Shown: one piece after another, positions 23,736 through 53,040 of the stretch
How the letters are laid out: each line of letters begins with the position of its first letter
Position numbering within the stretch: the stretch's first letter is position 1
Source of the DNA: Acidimicrobiales bacterium
Lineage (GTDB): Bacteria > Actinomycetota > Acidimicrobiia > Acidimicrobiales > SHLQ01
Length of the DNA stretch: 64,000 nucleotides
NCBI GenBank assembly: GCA_020629635.1
Contig: JAHDCX010000003.1
Span: forward strand, 205,480 to 269,479
Reading direction: 5' to 3'
Notes under the pieces: model-generated
What the model saw: only the letters and a program-made list of their open reading frames with translations
Databases searched by the model: none
Told to the model about the DNA's origin: nothing
Program-made: the position numbers and the translations under genes

Positions 23736-23751
23736 GTTTCGCCGATGTTTC
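23736..23751. promoter_or_regulatory. GTTTC-N6-GTTTC repeat pair, putative nitrogen-regulator site upstream of ureA
   Basis: Two GTTTC pentamers spaced 11 bp start-to-start (23736 and 23747). Read on the ureA strand they are GAAAC-N6-GAAAC, ending 42 bp before the ureA ATG. The same pentamer in the same spacing occurs upstream of the first amt gene. This resembles the GAAAC half-sites of actinobacterial GlnR boxes. It sits in the region shared with the K+ channel gene at 23806, so either gene could be the target. Confidence 0.45.
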
Positions 23752-50749: not shown

Positions 50750-51238
50750 TCAGGCGGCGATCTGTGTCGGAAACAGCAACGTGACGTCGGCCTGACCGTC
50801 GAGCACGAGATCGCATTCTCCGGGCATCGAGATGACGCGGACGGTGCGGTTCGTGGCCTGGAATCGATCGACGATGTCACGAAATCGAGCTGATCCGCTC
50901 ACGATGACCAACTCGTCAAACGTCCCGGAGCCGTGCTGGGCGAGGAACTGGTCGGCGAGGAGGCAATCGTCGTGGGTGCCGGGTTGTTCGATGACGAGCG
51001 CAGCGCCGGGGAACAGTTCCGATGCCGCCCATGCCAACTCGACCGGCGTGCCGACGAGATAGCGATCTCCCTCTCGGCGCGCCTCGGCCATCGTTTTCAC
51101 GATCACCGATCGTGCGGCGAGTTCTGTGGGTTCGATCGCGCCGACCGCATCGGTGATCAGGCTCGACAAGTCGACGACGACCAACTTCGACGTGGCCGCC
51201 CGCCGACGGTCCACCGGGCGCAGTGCTGGTGTTTCCAT
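50750..51238 (-). CDS. Hypothetical PIN/NYN-like protein
   Basis: 162 residues. 'KLVVVDLSSLITDAVG' near the N-terminus and 'DELVIVSGSARFRDIVDRFQATNRTVRVISMPGECDLVLDGQADVTLLF' have the Asp placement and strand-helix alternation of NYN/PIN nuclease folds, with 'GTHDDCLLADQFLAQH' in the middle. The assignment is tentative. It is divergent from the first amt gene, and its start codon overlaps a further GTTTC-N6-GTTCC sequence (51231-51246). Confidence 0.55.
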   Translation of the reverse strand: METPALRPVDRRRAATSKLVVVDLSSLITDAVGAIEPTELAARSVIVKTMAEARREGDRYLVGTPVELAWAASELFPGAALVIEQPGTHDDCLLADQFLAQHGSGTFDELVIVSGSARFRDIVDRFQATNRTVRVISMPGECDLVLDGQADVTLLFPTQIAA

Positions 51239-51291: not shown

Positions 51292-51349
51292 GTGTCGGGG
51301 GTGTTTCGTCGTGTGTCGGGCGTGTTTCGGGAAGTTTCTTCCGCGTTTC
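51292..51349. promoter_or_regulatory. Array of six GTGTC/GTTTC direct repeats upstream of amt
   Basis: Pentamers begin at 51292 (GTGTC), 51303 (GTTTC), 51313 (GTGTC), 51324 (GTTTC), 51334 (GTTTC) and 51345 (GTTTC), i.e. 11-10-11-10-11 bp apart, in phase with the DNA helix. Part of this is an 18-bp near-exact repeat (51291-51308 and 51312-51329). The array ends 142 bp before the amt ATG. Helically phased tandem repeats are the binding mode of OmpR-family regulators, and the complement GAAAC matches the GlnR-box half-site, so nitrogen control by a GlnR-like protein is a reasonable inference. Confidence 0.6.
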
Positions 51350-51490
51350 GCAGTGGTGAACGTCGCCCGCGGGACTTCAACACCGGGAATCGGCCGCGCC
51401 ATCGTCATGTCCAGGCGCCTCAATGCTGCGGCGCCACCCAACATCGACCCGGTGACGGACTGGGTCCACTTTGCTCGTAGGAGGGCAGGA

Positions 51491-52903
51491 ATGAAACGGA
51501 AGCTTCTGGGTGGTGCAGCGGTCACGCTCGCCGCACTTGCGATCACGGAACCGGCTGCAGCGCAGTCGATCGCCGACATCGAGCGCGGGACCGCAGAAGG
51601 CAACGACCTTCTGAACATGGTCGTGCTCGACAACATCTTCATCTTCTTCGCGGGCGTGCTCGTCCTGTTCATGCAGGCCGGCTTCGCCATGGTCGAAGCG
51701 GGCTTCACCGAGGCGAAGAACTCGGCGAACATCATGATGAAGAACATCATGGACGCCTGCGTGGGCATGTTGTTCTTCGGCCTCATCGGCTGGAACATCG
51801 CCTACTCTGGTGCGAGCTTCTTCGGCATCGCCGAGGGCCCCTTCGCCGGAATCTTCGGCGTCGCCGGCATGAGCGACCTCAACCCCGCCGACGTTGCGGA
51901 CTACCCGTTGGCCGTGCCGGTCGACTGGTTCTTCCAGGCGGCCTTCGCTGCGGCAGCGGCGACCATCGTGTCGGGCGCCGTCGCCGGCCGTACCCAGTTC
52001 AAGGGCTACCTCCTCTACTCGATCGTGATCACCGCCGTGATCTACCCGGTCGTCGTCAACTGGCAGTGGGGCGGCGGATGGCTGTCCGAGATGGGCTTCG
52101 TCGACTTCGCTGGCTCAGGTCTCGTCCACATGACCGGCGGTGTCGCCGCACTCATGGGTGCGATCGTCATCGGTCCTCGCATCGGCAAGTTCGGTCCCGA
52201 CGGCAAGCCCCGCACGATCAATGGCCACAGCATCCCGCTCGCCATGCTCGGTGTGTTCATCCTCTTCATCGGTTGGTTCGGCTTCAACCCCGGCTCCGAG
52301 CTCCAGGCAGACATGGCCGTCCCGTACGTGGCCGTCCTCACCGCCTTCGCCGCCGCAAGCGGTGGCTTCGCAGCGATGTTCACCTCGTGGGCCGTCATGG
52401 GTAAGCCTGACGTCGGCATGGCCGGCAACGGCATGCTCGCGGGCCTCGTCGCCATCTGCTCGGGCATCGGCAACTTCAACAGCGTCTGGACGCTTGTGAC
52501 CGGCGCCATCGCTGGCGTCATCGTCGTCTTCTCGATCCGTGCGGTCGAGTCGGCCAAGATCGACGACCCCGTCGGAGCCTTCTCGGTGCACGGCGTGTGC
52601 GGCTTCTGGGGCCTCGTGGCCACGGGCCTGTTCGCCACGACGTCCTCGCCGGTCGACAACTCGGGCGGCGGCCTCCTCACCGACGGAAGCGCCAGCCTCC
52701 TCATCGATCAGGTCGTCGGCGGCGTGGCGATCTTCGTCTTCGTGGCCATCGCGTCGGGTGCACTCTTCGCCGGGCTCAAGGCCGCTGGCCTCCTCCGGGT
52801 GTCCGAGGAAGAAGAGCTTGCCGGCCTCGACCTGTCCGAGCACGGTGCACCGGGCTACGACATGGGCATCGAGCAGACGGCATCGACCACGGTGCTCAGC
52901 TGA
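51491..52903 (+). CDS. amt: Ammonium transporter Amt (first copy)
   Basis: 470 residues. The ATG at 51491 has AGGAGG eight bases upstream and gives a cleavable signal peptide (AAAQSIAD, about residue 25). An 11-helix Amt core follows: 'GFAMVEAGFTEAKNSANIMMKN', the first pore histidine in 'HMTGGVAALMGAIVIGPRIG', 'GWFGFNPGSEL' and the second pore histidine in 'SVHGVCGFWG'. The C-terminal tail 'RVSEEEELAGLDLSEHG' is the regulatory segment of Amt proteins. It imports ammonium. No glnK is adjacent, unlike many amt loci. The gene is followed by two hairpins and then a second, diverged amt. Confidence 0.95.
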   Translation: MKRKLLGGAAVTLAALAITEPAAAQSIADIERGTAEGNDLLNMVVLDNIFIFFAGVLVLFMQAGFAMVEAGFTEAKNSANIMMKNIMDACVGMLFFGLIGWNIAYSGASFFGIAEGPFAGIFGVAGMSDLNPADVADYPLAVPVDWFFQAAFAAAAATIVSGAVAGRTQFKGYLLYSIVITAVIYPVVVNWQWGGGWLSEMGFVDFAGSGLVHMTGGVAALMGAIVIGPRIGKFGPDGKPRTINGHSIPLAMLGVFILFIGWFGFNPGSELQADMAVPYVAVLTAFAAASGGFAAMFTSWAVMGKPDVGMAGNGMLAGLVAICSGIGNFNSVWTLVTGAIAGVIVVFSIRAVESAKIDDPVGAFSVHGVCGFWGLVATGLFATTSSPVDNSGGGLLTDGSASLLIDQVVGGVAIFVFVAIASGALFAGLKAAGLLRVSEEEELAGLDLSEHGAPGYDMGIEQTASTTVLS

Positions 52904-52980: not shown

Positions 52981-52995
52981 GAACAAACCCAAACG

Positions 52996-53040
52996 GAAAT
53001 GCCGAGTGCTGTCATCCGGGCACTCGGCATTTCTCGTTTT
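52996..53040 (+). terminator. Rho-independent terminator after amt
   Basis: 14-bp perfect stem: gaaatgccgagtgc (52996-53009) pairs with 53020-53033, 10-base loop, followed by a T-rich tract (tcgtttt). This is the clearest intrinsic terminator in the window. It separates the two amt genes into independent transcripts. Confidence 0.9.

Follow-up and report, generated by a model that had tools for sequence, protein, structure and literature searches.

We found that the direct repeats upstream of amt1, an ammonium transporter gene in a 64,000-nucleotide stretch of an Acidimicrobiales bacterium genome (hereafter the window), are probably a multi-site operator for the OmpR-family regulator GlnR, which would control amt1 through class I-like activation of its promoter from upstream. 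An operator of this kind is already known, and what is new is its inverted, displaced and spacing-conserved arrangement. Control by GlnR has been described in Streptomyces, mycobacteria and their relatives, and other OmpR-family regulators, such as MtrA and PhoP, recognise related repeats. For Acidimicrobiia, a literature search in a limited library returned no paper on GlnR binding sites. The conservation of the core of the array, its specificity to amt, its match to the GlnR box and a GlnR homologue encoded in the same genome together make a GlnR-type operator on amt, as the original prediction had proposed, a well-supported reading of the sequence.

Half-sites upstream of amt1

Six pentamers had been predicted ahead of the transporter gene, and all six were recovered at the predicted coordinates, four of them reading GTTTC and two GTGTC on the plus strand, with the predicted spacing of 11-10-11-10-11 bp (Table 1). 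A seventh in-phase unit, GTGAAC, had been overlooked and lies 11 bp past the last GTTTC. In a phased scan, the array starting at 51292 obtained the best score in the window (28 of 30), far above the chance expectation; 20 second-order Markov versions of all 64 kb reached at best 17-20. Across the whole genome (4.45 Mb, 37 contigs), GTTTC-N5/6-GTTTC has four matches and its reversed control none; two of these matches overlap in the amt1 array and one precedes ureA. On the minus strand, the core reads gTTCAC-N6-GAAAC-N6-GAAAC, which fits the GlnR box consensus gTnAC-n6-GaAAC, usually found on the coding strand (PMC10704036).

A further predicted pair, GTTTC-N6-GTTCC at 51231, is present in the window but is not seen in relatives that retain the neighbouring gene; it covers the start codon region of that minus-strand gene (50750-51238) and we attribute it to chance. 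The product of the neighbouring gene matches the NYN domain only weakly (E = 0.04).

Table 1. Features of the amt1 upstream region and of the ureA site, in positions of the window
Feature	Position	Strand	Remark
Half-site GACAC (GTGTC on +), unit 7	51292..51296	-	units counted from GTGAAC
Half-site GAAAC (GTTTC on +), unit 6	51303..51307	-	
Half-site GACAC (GTGTC on +), unit 5	51313..51317	-	
Half-site GAAAC (GTTTC on +), unit 4	51324..51328	-	
Half-site GAAAC (GTTTC on +), unit 3	51334..51338	-	in conserved core
Half-site GAAAC (GTTTC on +), unit 2	51345..51349	-	in conserved core
Half-site GTTCAC (GTGAAC on +), unit 1	51356..51361	-	gTnAC-like, 11 bp from unit 2
CATCGT, candidate -10 element of amt1	51400..51405	+	CAnnnT at 44 bp
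22-nt hairpin GGCGCCTCAATGCTGCGGCGCC	51414..51435	+	putatively covarying stem, loop conserved within genus
amt1, ammonium transporter	51491..52903	+	PF00909, TIGR00836
GAAAC-N6-GAAAC pair	23736..23751	-	42 bp before ureA (urease gamma; 23694, -)

Conservation within the genus and specificity to amt

All ten same-genus genomes that contain DNA upstream of amt, the window's genome included, keep the array before the gene; in the eleventh genus genome, G004, the contig starts at amt. Two near-identical species pairs (G007/G010 and G006/G008) reduce these ten loci to about eight independent ones. GTGAAC is the most conserved unit in the alignment of the ten amt upstream regions, being invariant in 10/10, and the two GTTTC units that adjoin it are nearly invariant. 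Counted from GTGAAC, the lattice across relatives runs 11, 11, 9-10, 11, 10, 11 bp and is not strictly alternating, and most species carry further half-sites upstream on the same lattice, at 32-33, 43-44, 53-54 and 64-65 bp.

The core pattern is not randomly scattered and is almost confined to amt. Among the 11 genus genomes, GTTWC-N6-GTTKC-N6-GTGAAC has 12 matches (0 for the reversed control), of which 10 lie before amt1, one per genome, one before amt2 of G009 and one elsewhere in G006. The gene upstream of the array varies, being NYN-like in the window and dioxygenase-like in G002, G003, G007 and G010, and the persistence of the array despite this differing neighbour indicates that it belongs to amt.

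A GlnR homologue and other OmpR-type regulators

An OmpR-type DNA-binding domain was detected above the Pfam cut-off in 23 proteins of the genome and below it in one more, and among these roughly 23 proteins there is one clear GlnR homologue (C28:51542-52216). Its three best PDB matches are 8hig, 8hih and 8hml, which we take to be GlnR structures, the match table itself giving OmpR-family regulators. In the reverse comparison against 8hig, the candidate ranks first among the OmpR-type proteins of the genome (135 bits, the next reaching 99.8), and its GGxRTVDVHxRRLRxKLG stretch matches; the Pfam model GlnR_1st scores below its cut-off (E = 0.064). The gene lies directly downstream of glnA on contig C28, with glnII divergent, the glnA-glnR order is also found in the relatives read, and an orthologue is present in every genus genome at 68-72% identity. 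The candidate sites are located at nitrogen genes: the array precedes amt1 at ten loci and also amt2 of G009, and in the window ureA has a GAAAC pair ahead of it.

More than 20 other OmpR-type proteins are encoded in the genome, and a PhoP- or MtrA-like one might bind the array instead, linking ammonium uptake to the phosphate or envelope state, which we consider unlikely. The promoter-proximal unit, GTTCAC(C) on the minus strand, resembles one PHO-box unit, and a GTTCAC-N5-GTTCAC element that we take to be PHO-box-like (12 matches in the genus, 1 for the control) precedes pstS-like genes, identified from sequence by eye, in G000, G006 and G008 (L244, L245, L253). Similar GTTAAC/GTGAAC pairs are found before glnA, and in S. 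coelicolor amtB PhoP protects a stretch among the GlnR boxes (PMC10704036). However, the amt array contains a single GTTCAC unit, where a PHO box comprises at least two GTTCAC-type 11-bp direct repeats, and its remaining units are GAAAC and GACAC, of the GlnR b-site type. Furthermore, amt loci throughout the order carry box-type sequences with GAAAC, and GlnR is found there too. The element before the pstS-like genes is a different motif, which makes binding of the amt array by a PhoP-type regulator less likely. By analogy with S. coelicolor amtB, joint control of amt by GlnR and PhoP is possible.

Orientation of the array and promoter geometry

The array is inverted relative to amt throughout the genus, which had gone unnoticed in the original prediction. 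At 10/10 same-genus loci, an invariant CAnnnT lies exactly 44 bp from the G of GTGAAC without a gap, across a 38-bp spacer of only about 57% mean column identity, and CAnnnT has a frequency of 1.8% per position in the amt upstream regions. The arrangement is repeated before amt2 of G009 (CATTAT, 44 bp from GTGAAC), where the spacer is identical to that of G009 amt1 at only 13 of 38 positions. We infer from this fixed spacing that CAnnnT is the -10 element of amt1; against this assignment, it is a poor element compared with TAnnnT, and no conserved -35 was found at the ten genus loci. The canonical arrangement AC-N6-GAAAC-N10-TAnnnT was also searched for in the genus and gave nine matches, about as many as the controls, and is therefore not enriched.

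On this geometry, the array would end near -51 and point away from the gene, which suggests action from upstream of the -35 position, in a class I-like manner, unlike canonical GlnR boxes, which overlap it. Under nitrogen limitation, GlnR would bind head-to-tail along one face of the DNA, at GTTCAC-N6-GAAAC-N6-GAAAC and the extra upstream sites, and the bound protein would recruit RNA polymerase to the promoter with the -10 element CATCGT at 51400. The extra half-sites may make the response stronger or faster, an effect reported for S. coelicolor amtB, in which a third box speeds activation (PMC5826061).

An array that points away from amt, with a divergent NYN-like gene beginning 54 bp beyond it in the window's genome, might also be expected if it drove an antisense or divergent transcript, or if GlnR bound there to repress or fine-tune amt1, and GlnR does repress some of its targets (PMC5826061). 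We consider both variants very unlikely. No antisense or divergent minus-strand promoter at the canonical spacing was found, as none of the ten loci has a TAnnnT 8-12 bp from a minus-strand half-site; the array persists in G002, G003, G007 and G010, which lack the divergent gene; the fixed 44-bp link is on the amt side; and regulators bound at -51 and upstream more usually activate than repress. Neutral local duplication with no regulatory role, to which two 21-bp copies that are 81% alike might point, is already contradicted by conservation and hardly tenable, with a core that is specific to amt and was kept at ten loci while the spacer following it diverged, although duplication may account for part of the array, as the likeness of the two copies suggests.

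Comparison with other families and with described GlnR promoters

In most related Acidimicrobiales families, the boxes before amt are in coding-strand orientation. Using the strict score, GAAAC lies exactly 10 bp before TAnnnT at 10 of 19 outgroup loci and at 0 of 10 genus loci, and the outgroup amt loci contain no GAAAC-TAnnnT match at other spacings from 6 to 15. The canonical amt promoters of other families of the order (L041, L043, L046, L049, L051, L057, L058) are like those of the genus in their box sequences, in the amt gene and in GlnR, whereas their coding-strand boxes abut the promoter and the genus array is inverted and displaced. Inversion also occurs once outside the genus: at the outgroup locus L054 (G021), an amt paralogue is preceded by an inverted core, although CAnnnT is missing at +44.

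The original prediction had described the array as longer than the usual 2-4 half-sites; its six half-sites do not exceed what is known, as S. coelicolor amtB also has six, a count described as the highest for a single promoter (PMC5826061). That promoter (boxes a3-b3, a1-b1, a2-b2) shares with the array at least six half-sites in a phase of about 11 bp, GAAAC b-sites and GlnR; its a2 site is at the -35 position (PMC5826061), whereas the array here is inverted and displaced upstream. Direct repeats one helical turn apart are also shared with the four-site promoter of the GlnR activation complex (Shi et al. 2023), in which GlnR is arranged head-to-tail (per PMC10704036), but here the sites are more numerous, their orientation is opposite and no -35 contact is expected. 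Indeed, nearly all GlnR targets described so far have the other orientation. A listed exception is SCO0888 of S. coelicolor, with a GlnR box on the non-coding strand (PMC10704036), which is inverted as here but is a single case, in contrast to a multi-site array with genus-wide spacing. A coding-strand box abutting the -35 is usual for GlnR though not obligatory, and the array departs from this by its inversion and by its distance of 44 bp to the candidate -10; given the known exception, the inversion is no bar to counting the array among GlnR boxes and makes it a variant of them.

Homologous amt genes with the same regulator, whose operator abuts the promoter in most families and is inverted and displaced in one genus, constitute a natural experiment. 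If confirmed, this would mean that a head-to-tail OmpR-family activator can be reversed and yet serve the same gene, and the reversal would bear on how GlnR contacts RNA polymerase.

A conserved hairpin after the candidate -10 element

In the window, the CAnnnT element is followed after 8 nt by a hairpin (Table 1). The hairpin has the loop AGCGTY, is found at the same position in L030-L037 and is genus-specific, and the mRNA would carry it at its 5' end should the -10 be at 51400. Among nine distinct sequences, 91.7% of the pair cells of the stem are paired and three pairs change on both sides, with a covariation score reached by 0 of 500 shuffles, which ignore relatedness and are drawn from few sequences; we regard the covariation of the stem as suggestive. 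A covariance model recovered a single strong copy in each genome, in every case ahead of amt1 (nine genomes; G001 weak), and since it was built from the same sequences, the informative point is that no other strong copy appeared. An Rfam search gave no credible family match for the hairpin. By eye, the hairpin is absent at amt2 of G009, indicating that it is not part of the promoter. We tentatively suggest that GlnR of this genus activates amt from an inverted, fixed-distance array upstream of the -35, as a second mode of activation beside the canonical one that overlaps the -35, and that the conserved 5' stem-loop of the resulting mRNA affects its stability or translation.

Additionally, a terminator-like hairpin lies between amt1 and amt2 at 52995-53040 (GCCGAGTGC...GCACTCGGC then CTCGTTTT), which suggests that amt2 probably has its own promoter.

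Other candidate sites in the genome

The GAAAC pair before ureA, whose orientation is the same as that of the gene, is a possible second target; ureA is present in only three genus genomes, and the phasing of the pair is not clearly kept in G008 and G010. Genome-wide, the single box KTNAC-N6-GAAAC has 27 matches and its control 9, a threefold excess, but this search was of little use, as most matches fall inside genes, with one in 16S rRNA (by eye). The useful matches are only those at a glutamine-synthetase-like gene on C23 and in the nadE/glnII region, where a GTTAC-N6-GAAAC box (L166:1487-1516; G000:C28 ~48854) lies between glnII and a nadE-like gene, inverted relative to the latter. Finally, a conserved GTTAAC/GTGAAC, N5, GTGAAC element is found before glnA across the order (L143:1628-1657 in the glnII/glnA intergenic region; L173-L200), and could represent either GlnR a-sites or a PHO-box-like element.
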